A DNA stretch of 64,000 nucleotides from Pelagibacterium limicola (GTDB lineage: Bacteria; Pseudomonadota; Alphaproteobacteria; Rhizobiales; Devosiaceae), in NCBI RefSeq assembly GCF_015694405.1, contig NZ_JADQDB010000002.1, positions 1-64,000 on the forward strand, read 5' to 3'. Positions within the stretch are counted from its first letter, which is position 1. Each line of letters starts with the position of its first letter. A program made the translations under genes and the position numbers. The notes under the pieces were generated by a model. The model was not told the DNA's origin. It worked only from the letters and a program-made list of their open reading frames with translations, and did no database searches. Of this stretch, positions 1,671 to 10,172 are shown piece after piece.

Positions 1671-3131
1671 TCAGAACACGGGCGGGTAGGGACGTCCGCC
1701 GCGATCCAGCGTGATCCAGCGGGTTTCGGTGAACGTCTCCAGCGACCAGCGCCCGCCATGCTTGCCGACGCCCGAGGCCTTGAAACCACCGAACGGAACA
1801 TGCGGCTCGTCGTTCACCGAGGAGCAGTTGATGTGGCAGTTGCCTGTATCAAGCCGGTTGACGATGGCCAGCCCGCGGCCTTCGTCGCGCGTCATCACGC
1901 CCGCGGAAAGCCCGTACTCGGTGTCGTTGGCAATCTGGATTGCCTCGTCGTCCGTGCGGAACGGGATGACCGGCACGACCGGCCCGAATGTCTCGTCCTG
2001 ATAGAGCTTCATGTCGGGGGTGACGCCGGTGAGAATGGTCGGCTCGACGAAGCGCCCGTCGATCTTACCGCCCAGCACCACTTTGGCGCCCTTGGCGACT
2101 GCGTCCTCCAACTGCTCGCGCACCTTGCCAGCCTGCTTGTCGTTGATGAGCGGGCCGATGATGTTCTCCTTGCTTTTGGTTGGATCGCCAACCTTGAGCT
2201 TGGACGCGCGTTCGACAAATCGCTTGAGGAAATCGTCGTAAATCTTTTCGTGGACGAGAACTTTTTCGACTGACATGCAGATCTGGCCTTGATGCATGAA
2301 CGAACCGAAATTTGCCGCTTGTGTTGCACGCTCCATGTCCGCGTCCTCAAGGACGATGAGCGAGTCCTTGCCGCCGAGTTCCACGCAGCATTTTTTCAAA
2401 TGCGCCCCGGCCTTGGCGGCGATCTGGCGGCCCACAGGGGTCGAGCCGGTAAAGGAAATGCCCTTGACGTAAGGATGCTCGATCAGTTCGTCGCCGACTT
2501 CGGCAACGTTTTCACGCGAACAGGTGACGACGTTGAATACGCCCTTGGGCAGCCCGGCTTCCTCGAAGACTTCGGCAAACAGCAGCCCGCCCAGATACGG
2601 TGTTTCCTCCGAGGGTTTCAGGACGATCGTGTTCCCCGCGGCTAGCGGGAACAGGAAACCACGGGCCGAGAGAATGCAGGGGAAGTTCCACGGGCTGATG
2701 ACGGACACGACGCCCATCGGGCGGCGGACGGCCATGGAGACCTTGCCGTATTCGGATGGCAGCACCTCGCCGGTCGATTGCCACACCGAGGCAGCGGCGG
2801 CGTGGAAGACCTCGGTCACATAGCCCGTTTCGAACATGCCCTTGCCGAACCATCCGCCACCTTCGGCCTGAATGGCATCGACGATGTCCATCCTGCGTTT
2901 TTCCCAGACCTCTGCGGCCTTGTGCAACACATGGGCGCGCTTGGAGAAGGGGAGCTGAGACCACTCCGGGAAGGCGGCGTGTGCGGCTTCGATGGCCGCA
3001 GCGGTTTCGCTGCGACCGGCATCGGGCACTTCCGCCCAAACCGAGCCGTCCGCCGGATTAAGGTCCTTGAAGGTCTTGCTCGCAGCGGTCCAATTGCCGC
3101 CGATATACATGCCTCCGAAAGAGCGGGCCAT
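1671..3131 (-). CDS. NAD(P)-dependent aldehyde dehydrogenase (vanillin/benzaldehyde dehydrogenase-like)
   Basis: This 486-residue ALDH-superfamily enzyme oxidises an aldehyde to the acid with NAD(P). Visible residues are the oxyanion Asn in SPWNFP (N149), cofactor Lys in LKPSEE (K172), general base Glu in VELGGK (E251) and the catalytic Cys in HQGQICMS (C285). The Rossmann motif FTGSTPVG is also intact. It starts 2 bases after the LivF-like ATPase stop, so it is translated as the last gene of the operon. The ICMS context and overall layout resemble aromatic aldehyde dehydrogenases, but substrate assignment is inference. The closest certain label is ALDH family. Confidence 0.9.
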   Translation of the reverse strand: MARSFGGMYIGGNWTAASKTFKDLNPADGSVWAEVPDAGRSETAAAIEAAHAAFPEWSQLPFSKRAHVLHKAAEVWEKRRMDIVDAIQAEGGGWFGKGMFETGYVTEVFHAAAASVWQSTGEVLPSEYGKVSMAVRRPMGVVSVISPWNFPCILSARGFLFPLAAGNTIVLKPSEETPYLGGLLFAEVFEEAGLPKGVFNVVTCSRENVAEVGDELIEHPYVKGISFTGSTPVGRQIAAKAGAHLKKCCVELGGKDSLIVLEDADMERATQAANFGSFMHQGQICMSVEKVLVHEKIYDDFLKRFVERASKLKVGDPTKSKENIIGPLINDKQAGKVREQLEDAVAKGAKVVLGGKIDGRFVEPTILTGVTPDMKLYQDETFGPVVPVIPFRTDDEAIQIANDTEYGLSAGVMTRDEGRGLAIVNRLDTGNCHINCSSVNDEPHVPFGGFKASGVGKHGGRWSLETFTETRWITLDRGGRPYPPVF

Positions 3132-3133
3132 TT

Positions 3134-4750
3134 TCAGGTCTCCTTGTCTATTTCCTGCCCGTCGGGGTCAGGGTTGTCGTGGTTCTCGTAAGGGGCGGCC
3201 GCAAGGGCCGGCATCTTGAAAGCCTTGAGGCGGTGTCGCTCTTCCGCGGAAGGAAAAGCCGAAACTGCCTTGCGTTGGCGCGCTATGTGCGCGGCATGGA
3301 TGGCAGCCGCACGCGCAACGATATCGGCGATGGACAAGCCGCTGGCCGAATCCTTGGCTGCGTCCTGCTCGGGCTCGTTTTCGATTCCGAACGCCGCGCT
3401 ATTGTGGCCAATTTGCCCGTGGCGACCGGTCTGGTCGGGGGGAGGCGTAACTTCTGCGGCGCTGGAAATCTCGCGGTGCGACTTTGCTTCGGCAAAAGCG
3501 CTGGGCAGGGCCGCCGACATGCGCATTTTTGCGATATGAGCGCTCATCCTCTCGCTGGCCCGGCGCGCCAGATCGATGGGCGACTCGATGGTTGAATCGG
3601 TTGTCCGGCTGGAAGGCGCGGTTGTCGCCGGCGGCGGCGCTTTCTGCTGGCGGGCCTGGGCAAAGGCGCTGGGCTGGCGCTGCGAGAGGCGCAGGGAGCG
3701 GATATGCGCCGCGAGCCGGTCGGTCGCCTGCCGCACCATGGCGTCGGTGCGCCCAGCCAGGTTCCGTACATCAGCACCGACGGCGGGCGGGCTGGAGGGA
3801 AACGTTTCCCGGGGTACCATTGCGATGTCCTCCCATGGATCAGGCCCGGCTTTGGGATCGTAGCGCCCGACAAAGGCCGAGGGCAGGGCGCTGCTGCGCC
3901 TGAGTGCGCGAATATGGGCCTTCTGAATATCTCCGGCCCGGGCACCGAGCGCGGGGACCGATCTGCCGATCCCGGAAAGCGAACCGGGGAGGCGAAACGG
4001 CGGAGGCAGGGTGACGGTGGGCTTGACGGGCGTCCTGCCACCGCCGCCGCCAAGATAGGCACTGATGACCGCAGGATCGTCGGCCAGCGCATCGGCCGTG
4101 CCTTCCCCAACCACGTGGCCGTTCTCGATAAGGTATCCGCGCCTGGCGATCTTGAGGCTCTGCTTGGCGTTCTGTTCAACGAGAAGAATGCCGACGCCGC
4201 TCTTTGCAACTTCACCCAGAGAACGAAAGAGCTCAAGGCTCAGAAGAGGGGAAAGACCGAGGGAAGGCTCGTCGAGCATCAGGATATGCGGCTTGGACAT
4301 CAGCGCGCGGCCGATGGCGACCATCTGCTGCTCGCCGCCCGACATCGTGCGTGCGATCTGCCGCTTGCGCTCGGCAAGGCGCGGGAAGAGTTCATAGATC
4401 CGACGCAGCGTCGTCGCTTCCTCGCCGCGCGCGCGGGCAGCGAACGCGCCAAGCTGGAGGTTTTCGGCGACCGTCAGGTCACCGAAAATCCCGCGCCCCT
4501 CGGGGACGAGGGCAATGCCGGCCTCCACGATCTTGTGCGGCTTGAGCTTTGTGATGGACATTCCATTCATCACGATCTCGCTGCCGGGATCGGCCCGTTC
4601 CATCCCCGCGATAGCCTTGAGCAGCGAGGATTTGCCAGCGCCGTTGGCGCCGAGAATGACGCATATCTCGCCTTTCTCGACGGAGAGGTCGATCGCCTCC
4701 AGGGCGCGATGGAACCCGTAGGTAACCGAGAGATTCTTGACCTCAAGCAT
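3134..4750 (-). CDS. LivF-like ABC ATPase with a long repeat-containing C-terminal extension
   Basis: Residues 1-234 are a complete branched-chain amino-acid-type ATPase: Walker A GANGAGKS (34-41), signature MSGGEQQ, Walker B HILMLDE and the LLVEQN switch, ending AYLGG where LivF proteins normally stop. Residues 235-538 are extra. A Gly/Pro-rich linker leads to four spaced copies of a 22-residue helical-looking repeat (first copy at 272, then 342, 398, 481) with invariant A...AHI...R and mostly PSAF. The spacers are Pro/Ser/Ala-rich. I know no LivF with such a tail and do not recognise the repeat. The frame is open throughout and the downstream gene begins 2 bases later, so a sequencing fusion is unlikely. 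It overlaps the LivG-like gene by 8 bases. Confidence 0.9.
   Translation of the reverse strand: MLEVKNLSVTYGFHRALEAIDLSVEKGEICVILGANGAGKSSLLKAIAGMERADPGSEIVMNGMSITKLKPHKIVEAGIALVPEGRGIFGDLTVAENLQLGAFAARARGEEATTLRRIYELFPRLAERKRQIARTMSGGEQQMVAIGRALMSKPHILMLDEPSLGLSPLLSLELFRSLGEVAKSGVGILLVEQNAKQSLKIARRGYLIENGHVVGEGTADALADDPAVISAYLGGGGGRTPVKPTVTLPPPFRLPGSLSGIGRSVPALGARAGDIQKAHIRALRRSSALPSAFVGRYDPKAGPDPWEDIAMVPRETFPSSPPAVGADVRNLAGRTDAMVRQATDRLAAHIRSLRLSQRQPSAFAQARQQKAPPPATTAPSSRTTDSTIESPIDLARRASERMSAHIAKMRMSAALPSAFAEAKSHREISSAAEVTPPPDQTGRHGQIGHNSAAFGIENEPEQDAAKDSASGLSIADIVARAAAIHAAHIARQRKAVSAFPSAEERHRLKAFKMPALAAAPYENHDNPDPDGQEIDKET
3245..3937 (-). repeat. Four protein-level repeats in the LivF extension
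   Basis: Copies lie at 3872-3937, 3662-3727, 3494-3559 and 3245-3310 on the minus strand. The consensus is A-x3-hydrophobic-x-A-H-I-x2-(L/M/Q)-R-x5-P-S-A-F. Copies 1 to 3 keep PSAF; copy 4 reads FPSA one residue later. A hydrophobic-x-x-R-A stretch also precedes each copy, so the unit may be about 28 residues. Copies differ at DNA level, which means they are old or under protein-level selection and not recent DNA duplications. Confidence 0.8.
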
Positions 4751-5474
4751 CGTCGTCCCCGAGGTAGGCGCGTATGACTTCGGGGTTCGACAAGGTCTCG
4801 TCGACGCCGCCTTCGGCGATCTTGACGCCGCTCGACATGACGACGCACCGCCCGCATAGCGAACGAATGGCGTCCATGACGTGCTCCACCATGATGATGG
4901 TACGGCCCTCGCGGTTCACCTGCTCGATCAACGCGATGCCGATCTTGAGCTCGCTCGGATTAAGCCCCGCCAGCCATTCGTCAAGCAGCAGGACCCGAGG
5001 GTCCGAGGCGAGTGCCCGCGCAAGCTCTACCCGTTTCTGGTCGATATAGGTCATGGCGCCGACGGGCATGTCGCCTCGACCCTTCAGGCCTACCCGCTCA
5101 AGCAACTCGTGGGAGAGATGCAAGGCCGCCTCGCCCCAAAGCCGTCGACGACCAAAGACGGCCCCCGCCATGACGTTCTGGGCAGCACTCATCGAGGGCA
5201 GGACACGCACGAGTTGGAAGGTCCGCGCCACGCCCTTGCGGGCAATCCTGTGAGCGGAAAGGCCCGAAATGCGTTCCCCCTCCAACGCGATTTCGCCCGT
5301 AGTGGGTTTGAGCGCACCGGAGATGAGATTGAGCATCGTGGTCTTGCCGGAGCCGTTCGGACCGATGAGCCCCAGCAATTCGCCTTGCCTGACCTCAAAG
5401 CTAACATCATTGACGGCAACGAGGCCGCCGAAGGCCTTGCGTGCGGCGTGGACGCCTAAGATAACCGCGCTCAT
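4743..5474 (-). CDS. LivG-like ABC ATPase of a branched-chain amino-acid-type importer
   Basis: This 243-residue ATPase pairs with the LivF-like subunit on the cytoplasmic face of the importer. Walker A is GPNGSGKT (38-45), the Q-loop region reads ARTFQLVRVL, Walker B is RVLLLDE (160-166) and the D-loop is LAGLNPSE. The signature region, usually LSGGQ-like, reads MTYIDQKRVELARALA, a degenerate variant I have seen in one subgroup of LivG proteins. The start ATG at 5474 overlaps the LivM stop as ATGA; a longer in-frame opening upstream is only a shadow of LivM. Substrate unknown. Confidence 0.92.
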   Translation of the reverse strand: MSAVILGVHAARKAFGGLVAVNDVSFEVRQGELLGLIGPNGSGKTTMLNLISGALKPTTGEIALEGERISGLSAHRIARKGVARTFQLVRVLPSMSAAQNVMAGAVFGRRRLWGEAALHLSHELLERVGLKGRGDMPVGAMTYIDQKRVELARALASDPRVLLLDEWLAGLNPSELKIGIALIEQVNREGRTIIMVEHVMDAIRSLCGRCVVMSSGVKIAEGGVDETLSNPEVIRAYLGDDDA

Positions 5475-6436
5475 GCTGCCTTCTCCGCAGCGGGCTTGGC
5501 GGTGCGGCGCGATTGGAGCCTGTTCCAAACCTGCTCGAGGCGTCCAGTGACTCCCTGCGGGAGAAGAAAGACAATGGCCAGGAAGGAAAGACCCATGGCG
5601 ATCGGCATGTAGTTTGAGAACCGGACTGTGATGAAGTCCATGAGGATCACGAAGGGGATTACCCCGACGATCGGACCCCAAAGCCGTTTGGTGCCACCGA
5701 GAAGAGCCATGATGACGACAAGGAACGAAGTCATGGGATTGAAAGCCGTAGTCGCCTGGATGTAGCCGTAACGCGGCGCGCATATGGCACCGGCGATGCC
5801 GATGAAGGCGCCGGAAATGACGAACAGGGCAATCTTGGCTTTGGCGGTATCGATGCCCGAGTGGCGCGCCACCGTTTCGTCGTCGCCGATGATGCGCATG
5901 GCAAAACCGAGGCGCGAGCGGTTGATGAGCCAACCCGTGAGGAACACCAGCGCCGTAAGCGCGAGCAGCATCCAGTAGATGTGCATTTCCCGCAAGTCGG
6001 TGAATACATACAGCCCCATCCGGGTCGTGAATTTGCCCTGGGCCCAAGTGACGATCTGGCGCACAAGTTCTGCAAGGCCGAGCGTGAAGATCACGAAATA
6101 GACCCCCGAGAGGCGAAGCGTAGCAACGCCCACGAGCGCCGCCAATGCGCCTGCGGCAACTGCTCCGAACCCAACGAGAAGCGGGAAGGGGAGCACGTCC
6201 ACCCAGAGCGCCACGGCGTACGTGCCGAGACCGAAGAACGCGGCTGTCGCCAGCGAAACATAATGGGTCGGCCCGGAAAAGAGGGTCCAGGCCGTGCAGA
6301 GCGCGGCGTAAAGCGTGATGTTTACCGCAAGGGAGAGGTAATAACCCTGATCGACGAAAGGCAACATTGCCGCTAGTGCGAGAAAGAGAATGGCGGCAAC
6401 GCCGATGGCGATTTCCTTTTGCGAGAGGCGCGTCAT
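5471..6436 (-). CDS. LivM-like inner-membrane permease
   Basis: This 321-residue polytopic protein has about eight to nine hydrophobic helices. It carries the LivM family hallmarks, including the YHMI-like early helix YYLSLAVNITLYAAL and the conserved cytoplasmic loop RLGFAMRIIGDDETVARHSGID that contacts the ATPases. It forms the translocation pore with the LivH-like subunit. It is joined to both neighbours by ATGA overlaps, showing translational coupling. The C-terminal tail is Arg/Lys/Ala-rich. Confidence 0.92.
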   Translation of the reverse strand: MTRLSQKEIAIGVAAILFLALAAMLPFVDQGYYLSLAVNITLYAALCTAWTLFSGPTHYVSLATAAFFGLGTYAVALWVDVLPFPLLVGFGAVAAGALAALVGVATLRLSGVYFVIFTLGLAELVRQIVTWAQGKFTTRMGLYVFTDLREMHIYWMLLALTALVFLTGWLINRSRLGFAMRIIGDDETVARHSGIDTAKAKIALFVISGAFIGIAGAICAPRYGYIQATTAFNPMTSFLVVIMALLGGTKRLWGPIVGVIPFVILMDFITVRFSNYMPIAMGLSFLAIVFLLPQGVTGRLEQVWNRLQSRRTAKPAAEKAA

Positions 6437-7302
6437 GTGGTCTGCCTCCCAAACATGCCCTGCGGGCGGAAGAGAAGAACCACGATAAAGAGCGTGTAGG
6501 TGGCGGCCAGCGTCAGGCTCGGATCGATCAAGCTGGCGACGGCGGTTTCCGCAACGCCGAGGATCAACGCCGCCAGCACCGCGCCGCGCACGTCACCCAC
6601 CCCGCCCATAATGACGATAATCAGCGCCTTCATGGTGAACACCACACCCATTGAGGCATTGAAGGTGTAAAACGTTGAGAGCAATGCGCCGCCGCAGGCC
6701 GTCAACGCACCCCCTAGCGCAAACGCAATTGCGGCCGTGCGCGCAACGTCGATGGCGACGAGATTGGCCGATTTCGGATCAACTGCCACGGCGCGCATGG
6801 CGGTGCCGTGGCGCGTCCGATAGAGGAAAAAGTAAAGCGCAACGGCGATAGCCACGGCGGCAGCGAACGCTACGACCCGATTGAGACCATAGCCCGAGCC
6901 CAGGATTTCAAAGCGCTGGGCGAGAAATGTGTAGTTGAAATATTCTCCGCCGAAGGTAAGCAGCATGATGCCCTGGAAAAGGAACAACAGACCGAAAGTC
7001 GCCAGAATCGAGTCGACCTCCAACTGTCCTCGGCTCTTGGCGCGTTTGACGAGCGGCTCGAGCGCGACCCGGTAAATACCCCAGTTGGCCGCGAAGGCCG
7101 CCGGCGCAATGATGAGCAGGCCGACGACTGGATTAATCGTGAGGGTCGCGAATAGCCACATCGCGATGAAACAACCGGCAACTAGGGTTTCCCCATTTGC
7201 CAGGTTCATGATGCGGGCGACGCCGTATTGCAGGGTCAGCCCCAGGGCAATCAAGGCGTATGTGCCGCTCAGCAAGATGCCGGTGACTAGAATTTGGGTC
7301 AT
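6433..7302 (-). CDS. LivH-like inner-membrane permease
   Basis: This 289-residue permease has about eight membrane helices and the typical LivH opening GILLSGTYALIALGLTLQYGVARIMNLANGE. The conserved coupling loop reads RTRHGTAMRAVAVDPKSANLVAIDV, and GGVGDVRGAVLAALILGVAE near the C-terminus is also diagnostic. It pairs with the LivM-like subunit. The gap to the upstream binding-protein gene holds a GC-rich hairpin, suggesting lower expression than the binding protein. Confidence 0.93.
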   Translation of the reverse strand: MTQILVTGILLSGTYALIALGLTLQYGVARIMNLANGETLVAGCFIAMWLFATLTINPVVGLLIIAPAAFAANWGIYRVALEPLVKRAKSRGQLEVDSILATFGLLFLFQGIMLLTFGGEYFNYTFLAQRFEILGSGYGLNRVVAFAAAVAIAVALYFFLYRTRHGTAMRAVAVDPKSANLVAIDVARTAAIAFALGGALTACGGALLSTFYTFNASMGVVFTMKALIIVIMGGVGDVRGAVLAALILGVAETAVASLIDPSLTLAATYTLFIVVLLFRPQGMFGRQTT

Positions 7303-7411: not shown

Positions 7412-8605
7412 CTACCAGGCCGGCTTGACGACCGGATCGGCGCCAACCGAAATACCATCGGCCGCTACCGCGACGAACTTGCCGTCGCGCCACTGGCCAA
7501 CGGTCCAGACATTGGGGTTGACGTTATCGATGAAGTCGATGGTGCCGATAACGGTGTCGAATGTGCCGTTCTTGATGGTCTCGATCACCGCGGCCTTGTC
7601 GGTCGATCCGGTCTGTTCGATAGCCTGAGCGAGGACCTGGAGGCCGGCATAGGTCGTAGCGCTAGCCCAATAGTCAGGTTCTGAACCGGCGATCTCCTGA
7701 TGGCGCGCAAAGTAGTCCGCTACCTTGGGATCTTCCGCGTTGACCCCGCCAATGCCCATGATGCCTTCTGAGGCATCACCGAAGCGGTCGCGGAATCCGG
7801 GGAAAGCCGTGCCGACACCGGTATAGAACGCGCCGACCTCAAGCCCCTGGATCTGGGCCTGCTCGGTGAGCGCGAAGGTATCGCCGGGATAGGAAAAAGC
7901 AATGAAGCCATCGGGTTCGGCAGCCTTGGCAGCAGCAACGATCGGTGCCACGTCCTGGGTACCGAACGGGTAGGACGCCTCGTAAACGATGTCGAAACCG
8001 GCTTCGAGAAGCTGGGGCTTCGCCGCGGTCACGAGTTCCTGCCCGAATGCGTCACCGACATAGACAAGAGCGATCCTGTCGCCGATATCGCCGGCATCGC
8101 GCAGTTGCGAGAATGCCTGAACCACACCCTCGCCCAACTGGCTGGCCGTGCCGAGCATCCAGAACGAGTTCGGCCAGCGCCGGGCGAATTCCACGACGCC
8201 ATCGGTCGCTGCGCTGGTCGTGATGTGGGGATAGCCGTGCTGATTAATCATCGGCGCGGTGGCGACGTTGATGCCGGTCGAGTATGGCGTGACGATGAAG
8301 TCGACATTGTCGACGGTTGCGAGGCGCTGGATGTTCTGAATCGCAATTTCGGGGTTGGTCTGATCGTCATATTCGATCAACTCGATAGTCATCCGACGAT
8401 CACCGACCTGCAGCCCGCCGGCCTCGTTGATCTCGTGCATCCAGAGCCGGATGTTTGGCCAATGGGTCACGGCGCCACCGCCACCAAGTGGCCCGGTCTT
8501 GGGCGCACTGGCGCCGATTCTGAGCACGTCCTGCGCGAACGCGCCGGGGGCAACCAATAACCCGGCAGCGCACACCGCCGTTGCGAACAAGGTTCTTCTT
8601 TTCAT
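7412..8605 (-). CDS. Liv-type periplasmic substrate-binding protein
   Basis: This 397-residue protein begins with a Sec signal peptide (MKRRTLFATAVCAAGLLVAPGAFAQ, cleavage after AFAQ) followed by VLRIGASAPKTGPL, the first strand of the type I periplasmic binding fold (Peripla_BP_6). Later parts (ITTSAATD, FWMLGTASQLGEG, IALVYVGDAFGQE) follow the same fold. It captures the ligand and delivers it to the LivH/M-like permease. The ligand-binding pocket cannot be read from sequence. Flanking aldehyde dehydrogenases suggest an organic acid or aromatic compound and not leucine. Confidence 0.92.
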   Translation of the reverse strand: MKRRTLFATAVCAAGLLVAPGAFAQDVLRIGASAPKTGPLGGGGAVTHWPNIRLWMHEINEAGGLQVGDRRMTIELIEYDDQTNPEIAIQNIQRLATVDNVDFIVTPYSTGINVATAPMINQHGYPHITTSAATDGVVEFARRWPNSFWMLGTASQLGEGVVQAFSQLRDAGDIGDRIALVYVGDAFGQELVTAAKPQLLEAGFDIVYEASYPFGTQDVAPIVAAAKAAEPDGFIAFSYPGDTFALTEQAQIQGLEVGAFYTGVGTAFPGFRDRFGDASEGIMGIGGVNAEDPKVADYFARHQEIAGSEPDYWASATTYAGLQVLAQAIEQTGSTDKAAVIETIKNGTFDTVIGTIDFIDNVNPNVWTVGQWRDGKFVAVAADGISVGADPVVKPAW

Positions 8606-8708: not shown

Positions 8709-10172
8709 TCAAGCGTAGTGAATAGTCTTTGTCTCGAGATAGTTCTCGAGGCCTTCCGGACCGCCCTCACGTCCCATGCCGGACTGCTTGTAGCCGCCGA
8801 ACGGGTGCTTCGGATCAACGATCATGCCGTTAATCGTGACGCTTCCCGTCCGCATCCGGCGCGCGACAGCATAGCCGCGCTCGGGATTGGTCGTGTAGAC
8901 TGCACCCGAGAGCCCGTAGGGCGAATTGTTGGCCTTGGCGATGGCGTCGTCTTCGTCCGAATAGGTCAGCACGGAAACGACTGGTCCGAAGATCTCCTCC
9001 TGAACGATCTTCATGTGCGGCGTGACATCTGTGAACACTGTCGGTTCGACATAATAGCCGCGCTCCAGCCCGGCAGGGCGACCGCCGCCGCATGCGACCA
9101 TTGCCCCTTCCGCGCGGCCGGCGGCGATATAGCTTTCAACGCGGGCCCGCTGGCGGGCCATTGAAAGAGGCCCCATCTGGGTATCGGGATCGAACGGGTC
9201 GCCCACCCTGATGTTCCTGACCGCGCCCACATAGAGATCGAGAAACTCCTGCTTGCGGGTTTCGGGCACCAGAATTCGGGTGAGCGAGAAGCAAACTTGG
9301 CCGGTGATGGGCATTGTATAGACCATGAGGCTGGGCAGGGCCGCCTTGAAATCGGCATCGTCGAGCAGGATTGCGGCGGACTTCCCTCCCAGTTCGAGGC
9401 TGACGCGGGCCAGCCTATCGGCGCAGATCTTCGCGATGGCCTTGCCCGCTGCCGTTGAACCGGTAAAGGCAACCTTGTCGATGGATTTATGGCTGACGAG
9501 GTATTCGCCGCCTTCTCGATCGGCTGGGACGAGGTTGAAAACGCCCGCTGGCAGCCCGGCCTTTTCGATACACTCGGCAAGTATATAGGCTTCGAGGGGC
9601 GTTTCGGGCGAAGGTTTGGCTACGACGGTGCAGCCTGCGGCAAGCGCCGCGGAAACCTTATAGCTCAGAAGCACCATCGGTGCATTCCAGGGCGAAATCG
9701 CCGCACAAACGCCCACCGGCTCCTTGGCAACTCGGACGCGCCCGCCATCGTCGCGCTTGCGCTCATCCACGAAGGGGAAGGATTCGATGAGATCGGCATA
9801 ATAATTGAACAGCGTGGGGTTCTGGCCGACGAGCTTTTTTGTAAGCATGATCGGCGCGCCAACCTGAAGCGTCCATGCTTGGGCGATGTCCTCGAGCCGT
9901 TCGGAGAGATATTCGGCGACCTTGCGCAAATAGCGCGCGCGCTCGGAAGGCGACATGCTTGGCCAAGGTCCATTGTCGAACGCATCGCGCGCTGCGGCAA
10001 CGGCGCGGTCGATATCCGCTCTACCCGCTTCGGGATAACTGATGACGAGCTCTTCGGTAACCGGGGAGACGACTTTGAGCTGCTGGACGGAGATCGGCTC
10101 AACCCACTTGCCACCGATAAAGAACCGTTCCGGTGCTTTCGGCGCCGCGATATTGCGAAACGCTACGTTCAT
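8709..10172 (-). CDS. Aldehyde dehydrogenase (first gene of the liv-type operon)
   Basis: This second ALDH-superfamily enzyme has 487 residues and is clearly different from the one at 1671. Key residues are Asn in SPWNAP (N163), Lys in AKPSPE (K186), Glu in LELGGK (E260) and nucleophilic Cys in TGQVCFS (C294). FTGSTAAG is the Rossmann motif. The C-terminal GGYKQSGMGREGG matches betaine-aldehyde/succinate-semialdehyde-like classes, but no specific substrate can be named. It lies directly opposite the GntR regulator, across a 506-base gap, and probably opens the operon. Having two ALDHs bracket one importer suggests that the imported compound yields two aldehydes or an aldehyde and a semialdehyde. 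Confidence 0.92.
   Translation of the reverse strand: MNVAFRNIAAPKAPERFFIGGKWVEPISVQQLKVVSPVTEELVISYPEAGRADIDRAVAAARDAFDNGPWPSMSPSERARYLRKVAEYLSERLEDIAQAWTLQVGAPIMLTKKLVGQNPTLFNYYADLIESFPFVDERKRDDGGRVRVAKEPVGVCAAISPWNAPMVLLSYKVSAALAAGCTVVAKPSPETPLEAYILAECIEKAGLPAGVFNLVPADREGGEYLVSHKSIDKVAFTGSTAAGKAIAKICADRLARVSLELGGKSAAILLDDADFKAALPSLMVYTMPITGQVCFSLTRILVPETRKQEFLDLYVGAVRNIRVGDPFDPDTQMGPLSMARQRARVESYIAAGRAEGAMVACGGGRPAGLERGYYVEPTVFTDVTPHMKIVQEEIFGPVVSVLTYSDEDDAIAKANNSPYGLSGAVYTTNPERGYAVARRMRTGSVTINGMIVDPKHPFGGYKQSGMGREGGPEGLENYLETKTIHYA

Follow-up and report, generated by a model that had tools for sequence, protein, structure and literature searches.

The window analysed here is a stretch of 64,000 nucleotides from Pelagibacterium limicola (contig NZ_JADQDB010000002.1, positions 1 to 64,000). 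Its minus strand carries, in order of transcription, an aldehyde dehydrogenase (ALDH1), a substrate-binding protein, LivH, LivM, LivG, a LivF with a long C-terminal tail, and a further aldehyde dehydrogenase (ALDH2). From their spacing and conserved gene order we infer that these seven genes form a single operon. The features are as follows.

8709..10172, minus strand: ALDH1, the second aldehyde dehydrogenase of the locus, upstream; its counterpart in the relative G002 is 89% identical
7412..8605, minus strand: substrate-binding protein
6433..7302, minus strand: LivH-type permease, named from gene order and similarity
5471..6436, minus strand: LivM-type permease, named from gene order and similarity
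4743..5474, minus strand: LivG-type ATPase, with a start codon chosen in this analysis
3134..4750, minus strand: LivF-type ABC ATPase with tail, whole open reading frame (ATG start, 538 amino acids)
4046..4750, minus strand: LivF-type ABC ATPase domain, residues 1-235 (Pfam ABC_tran; NCBIfam LivF PRK11614, 251 bits; orthologue in G002)
3134..4045, minus strand: C-terminal tail, residues 236-538, with the stop codon; an open frame, 66% identical to the G002 tail
3896..3952, minus strand: repeat 1 core ALGARAGDIQKAHIRALRR, then PSAF; residues 267-285, predicted helix 258-286
3689..3745, minus strand: repeat 2 core DAMVRQATDRLAAHIRSLR, then PSAF; residues 336-354, predicted helix 326-358
3518..3574, minus strand: repeat 3 core DLARRASERMSAHIAKMRM, then PSAF; residues 393-411, predicted helix 391-412
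3383..3421, minus strand: conserved block HGQIGHNSAAFGI, located in the linker from repeat 3 to repeat 4; residues 444-456, identical in the G002 copy
3272..3328, minus strand: repeat 4 core ADIVARAAAIHAAHIARQR; residues 475-493, predicted helix 474-497
1671..3131, minus strand: ALDH2, aldehyde dehydrogenase of 486 amino acids, beginning 2 bases past the LivF stop

The ATPase itself is conventional. Residues 17-163 match Pfam ABC_tran (6.2e-29, 101.8 bits), and the residues of the motifs that we take to be its P-loop, MSGGEQQ signature and LDEPS are invariant in alignment A1. Residues 214-236 score 24.8 bits against Pfam BCA_ABC_TP_C, for which the gathering score is 25.5, and the ATPase domain is 91% identical to that of the G002 orthologue. 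Genes for LivG, LivM, LivH and a substrate-binding protein stand alongside, as judged from gene order and similarity across loci, so that in both its ATPase domain and its gene neighborhood the protein resembles the LivF ATPases of the HAAT family. Unlike these, it carries a tail of 303 residues and has two aldehyde dehydrogenases adjoining its transporter genes, and it scores 251.5 bits against the NCBIfam LivF equivalog PRK11614, below the curated cut-off of 441.

A sequence-only reading of the window had proposed that an in-frame tail with four repeats follows a complete LivF ATPase, mostly with the letters PSAF behind each copy, and that an aldehyde dehydrogenase begins 2 bases further on. 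All of this holds. The LivF stop codon occupies 3134-3136 and the ATG of ALDH2 lies at 3131. A helical unit, A..(I/L)..AHI...R, occurs four times in the 303 residues, its cores spaced 38 to 63 residues apart; PSAF stands behind three of the four, with FPSA at repeat 4. Self-similarity within the tail exceeds chance (three copies score 128 at best, and none of 300 shuffles goes above 85), and with a profile made from only these four repeats, 9 of 42 other tails beat the best of 4300 shuffled tails. An AlphaFold2 model (16 sequences) places a helix on each repeat, with pLDDT of 68-92 in ten-residue blocks lying wholly within the repeat helices and long linker stretches under 50, which suggests a largely disordered chain with helical repeats.

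The same reading had described the repeats as short amphipathic helices. Helices are indeed predicted, but a marked amphipathic face is unsupported because the hydrophobic moments of the four repeats (0.42, 0.47, 0.43 and 0.21) are equalled in 15-67% of shuffles of the same residues. Nor do the repeats fall within a known domain: neither Pfam nor NCBIfam has a match to the tail up to E = 1, and none was found among PDB sequences. We regarded as chance the sub-cut-off matches to ArgJ, FimH, ATPase inhibitor zeta and Eisosome1, together with those to two PDB chains (E 0.31 and 0.51). A profile of 18 repeats, searched against the window's own genome up to E = 10, returned nothing beyond the four repeats of the window, which match by construction because they were built into it.

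Compared with G002, linkers are 62% identical, and pN/pS rises from 0.10 in the ATPase through 0.22 in the repeat cores to 0.35 in the linkers; these figures are rough because synonymous change is near saturation. They bear out the proposal that selection acts on the repeats at the protein level, and support viewing the repeats as conserved helices. The block HGQIGHNSAAFGI lies in a region where 14 of 16 residues match G002, and it is similar in two further loci, L091 and L103, while the linkers around it vary.

How widespread are such tails? They are no general feature of the family: with the tail as query, 2 of 61 relatives (the window's own genome and G002) match at E up to 0.001. Further, more distant tails surfaced through searches with the LivF domain, which at their respective cut-offs found 25 of 61, 33 of 136 and 36 of 397 genomes. 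We extracted 18 loci by coordinate and used an alignment of tailed proteins to scan named genomes, keeping the best 80 of 591 relatives; the resulting 98 loci, less 4 duplicates and with the window added, gave 95 rows. This set leans toward kin of tailed LivF because the scan was seeded with tailed proteins. Tails were counted from 40 residues upward, neighbors were assessed on the same strand out to 300 bp, and a gene was called ALDH2 if it was at least 60% identical to that of the window.

Among the 95 rows, which include the best 80 of 591 relatives, 37 have both tail and ALDH2. One is tailless with ALDH2, one is tailless with ALDH2 on the opposite strand, 27 are tailless with another aldehyde dehydrogenase, and 19 are tailless and lack a fusion, ALDH2 or other aldehyde dehydrogenase. 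In six the LivF frame is fused to an aldehyde dehydrogenase, as set out below. The last four have a long C-terminal run with no ALDH2 seen: L079, L129 and L136 reach or approach the end of their contig, and L118 is an out-of-frame run across a dehydrogenase gene. L118 and L061 both lack an early LivF stop, and their frame crosses the downstream dehydrogenase gene out of frame for hundreds of codons; such frames could represent a damaged fusion or an overlapping read.

Complete tails among the best 80 of 591 relatives and the 18 loci span 45-360 residues and sit on LivF relatives from several Pseudomonadota orders. They fall into two types. Tails of the window type have one to four helical units each. 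The second type, seen in 28 of the 43 tails compared, mostly has one helical unit, usually the related (I/L)(D/E)(D/A)LV..A with a second helix EIE.AA..AR, and often ends with the C-terminal block IEVYRRPRVEVYRR. PSAF lies outside the general motif, as it is confined to 5 of the 43 tails (the window, L073 from G002, L091, L103 and L094). Tail type is not simply taxonomic, since the second type occurs in Rhodobacterales and other orders as well as in some Hyphomicrobiales (L080, L097, L098 and L130 among them), and a tail of the window type is present in the Rhodospirillaceae row L131. Profiles match their member tails by construction because they were built from them; independent links come from a second-type profile, built without the window, that matches the start of window repeat 4 (4e-4), and from a window-type profile, built without L108 and L096, that matches both (6e-5 and 3e-3).

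The tail is evolutionarily tightly associated with ALDH2. A tree of the 95 rows contains a 45-row clade around the window (modest support of 84/88, drawn open), and a tailed Burkholderiaceae row with ALDH2, L158, falls outside it on a long branch. After removal of the contig-end rows L079, L129 and L136, 42 rows of the clade could be judged, again including members of the best 80 of 591 relatives. In 36 of these 42 a tailed LivF has ALDH2 next to it on the same strand, with gaps of -4 to +189 bp, and in none is a tail present without ALDH2. Six are tailless: four (L087, L110, L143 and L146) have no adjoining ALDH2, L085 (genome G282) has it convergent, and L086 (G396) has it next. With L085 scored as lacking ALDH2 and related tips taken as independent, Fisher's exact test of tail against ALDH2 gives p 7e-6; the chance that all four ALDH2-less rows would be among the six tailless ones, on the same assumption of independence, is 1.3e-4.

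The genomes of four tailless rows fit this pattern. Searches of those carrying L143, L110 and L087 found no ALDH2 orthologue at E up to 1e-100; best identities to ALDH2 in the genomes of tailless members G892, G894 and G310 were 43%, none and 44%, the G310 genome being 86% complete. G893, the genome of L146, has two operons of this kind: LivF is tailless in the operon that lacks ALDH2 and has a tail of 164 residues in the operon that includes it. We also searched for ALDH2 blind to tails (E up to 1e-185), which found 4 of 385 genomes of the class and 9 of 397 of the order, one shared, for 12 distinct genomes. Ten of the 12 have a tailed LivF, and G282 and G396 do not. In G351 LivF and ALDH2 are on separate contigs, each ending close to the junction, and in G302 a contig end cuts the ALDH2 behind LivF, the listed match being a second ALDH2-like gene on another contig.

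ALDH2 orthologues following a tailed LivF are 62-95% identical. The nearest solved chains to ALDH2, salicylaldehyde and vanillin dehydrogenase (6qhn and 9ihb), place it closest to the salicylaldehyde, vanillin or benzaldehyde dehydrogenases, and because of this proximity aromatic aldehydes are its likeliest candidate substrates. No NCBIfam equivalog scored above its cut-off among 25 of the 38 families listed. In the window and in G002 the upstream dehydrogenase slot is filled by ALDH1, which is about 34-35% identical to the enzyme in the same slot of three other tail operons.

Sister operons join the two functions directly. Six of the 95 rows (L081, L082, L089, L134, L147 and L160; the rows include the best 80 of 591 relatives) encode an in-frame fusion of LivF and aldehyde dehydrogenase, with Pfam ABC_tran and Aldedh found within one chain of 764 residues, and more genomes beyond these rows have long fused LivF frames. 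On the 95-row tree, parsimony gives four gains or losses of the fusion, well-supported branches require at least two, and the fusion apparently arose more than once. The linker between the two parts is often proline-rich, and its pN/pS is 0.24 and 0.31 in two pairs of about 42 codons each. The two fused dehydrogenases compared are about 45% identical to ALDH2, and 62-67% to the dehydrogenase that three tail operons encode upstream. Judged by these identities, the fusions involve a different dehydrogenase from ALDH2, which counts against the tail as a tether for ALDH2.

We propose that the tail is a largely disordered tether with several short helical binding motifs, whose partner is the adjacent ALDH2. 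We give this an even chance of being right, and it is the best single reading because it brings together the co-occurrence with ALDH2, the layout of the repeats and the fusions reached in parallel. The helical motifs would bind ALDH2, presumably an oligomer, and keep it at the cytoplasmic face of the importer, where an incoming or quickly formed reactive aldehyde, probably aromatic, would be oxidised on arrival; channelling or detoxification would be the benefit. Sister operons may reach the same outcome through direct fusion of LivF to another aldehyde dehydrogenase. The Rubisco scaffold EPYC1 is a disordered chain whose repeated short motifs bind one enzyme. CsoS2, as described in the cited part of its source, is likewise a disordered chain, with four short repeats per protein that bind Rubisco (PMC10614612). 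The window tail, a disordered chain bearing several short motifs that resemble one another, is like EPYC1 and the N-terminal repeats of CsoS2, common descent not being implied, and many relatives have one unit only. Unlike these two, it sits on a transporter ATPase, its motif differs from that of CsoS2, and its client would be ALDH2 by our proposal.

The docking of the adjacent dehydrogenase by the repeats had already been suggested from the window alone. Co-occurrence and the sister fusions speak for it, but a structure prediction gave no signal. We modeled the three-repeat tail of G230 with its ALDH2 as a single AlphaFold2 chain (39 sequences, the stop read as a residue, a monomer without the ALDH tetramer and without a matched control), and the tail helices reached pLDDT of 68-77 in blocks wholly inside helices. 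No docking is predicted, as these values are no better than the 68-92 of the window tail without ALDH2. Retention of ALDH2 without a tail in G396, and a convergent ALDH2 without a tail in G282, also count against the tether. Any mode of binding would not be uniform, because 28 of the 43 tails have other motifs and mostly one helical unit.

Alternatively, the tail may be autoregulatory: its helices would fold back onto the ATPase dimer or the permeases, or sense a metabolite, and gate transport wherever the ALDH2 pathway exists. In that case tail and ALDH2 would be connected indirectly, by way of this pathway. MalK is an ABC ATPase with a cytoplasmic C-terminal regulatory domain. So, in the cited parts of the sources, are MetN C2, ModC and NrtC (PMC10710835, PMC6603209), and like these the window LivF has an additional C-terminal part on its ATPase. 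The cases described there are defined domains, however, whereas the model shows the window tail as largely disordered, pLDDT staying under 50 over long stretches, with repeated helices (one to four per window-type tail), no family match and nothing resembling the folded C-terminal domain of MetN or MalK. Autoregulation alone also leaves the LivF-dehydrogenase fusions unexplained, and we consider it unlikely.

A second alternative keeps docking and changes the partner, to membrane lipid, another pathway enzyme, or a signalling protein such as PII. The repeat cores of the window have a net positive charge (+2 to +3), and the tails of L074, L091, L093 and L094 have lysine-rich ends, as if for binding membrane or nucleic acid. 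In cyanobacteria PII binds UrtE, NrtC and NrtD, according to the cited part of PMC6603209, and like our proposal this gives the ATPase of an importer a soluble cytoplasmic partner; unlike it, the partner is a signal protein and not an enzyme, and that part of the source describes no repeat tail. Docking to another partner does not predict the close link to ALDH2, including the two operons of G893, and strikes us as distinctly improbable.

Tail and ALDH2 might, finally, do no more than move together as a 3' cassette, with the tail a weakly constrained extension of small role. Because the two are neighbors, a single deletion could remove both and a single transfer could introduce both, so that co-loss and co-transfer need no contact, and the linkers do change quickly (they are 62% identical to those of G002, the ATPase 91%). 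Against this, the repeat cores change less than the linkers, the helical motif turns up again in distant genomes, and several orders have tails; we find such a cassette a shade harder still to credit. The weakest explanation, two genes joined by frameshift or misassembly, is rejected as having a negligible chance: G002 has a 66% identical tail at the same place, other genomes have a tail there too, and the repeat profile (E up to 0.01) found no separate copy in eight genomes without a window-type tail, matching 2 of the 10 searched, both known carriers, and missing second-type tails such as that of G893.

Returning to the tether, we put forward, tentatively and at a little under an even chance, that these operons represent a class of importers that builds a transport metabolon, in which up to four docking sites on the tail gather an aldehyde dehydrogenase at the inner membrane and sister lineages do so by fusion. 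In the open-access literature searched we found no bacterial ABC importer physically coupled to a pathway enzyme via its ATPase, and nothing relevant-looking on a LivF-dehydrogenase fusion or a LivF tail. If the class is real, nature supplies one operon in tethered, fused and untethered forms, and comparing these could show whether an enzyme placed at an importer speeds the use of a reactive aldehyde or limits its leakage. In two of the tailed loci, L097 and L130, LivF stop and ALDH2 start overlap (gaps of -1 and -4), an arrangement that suggests translational coupling of the two genes.
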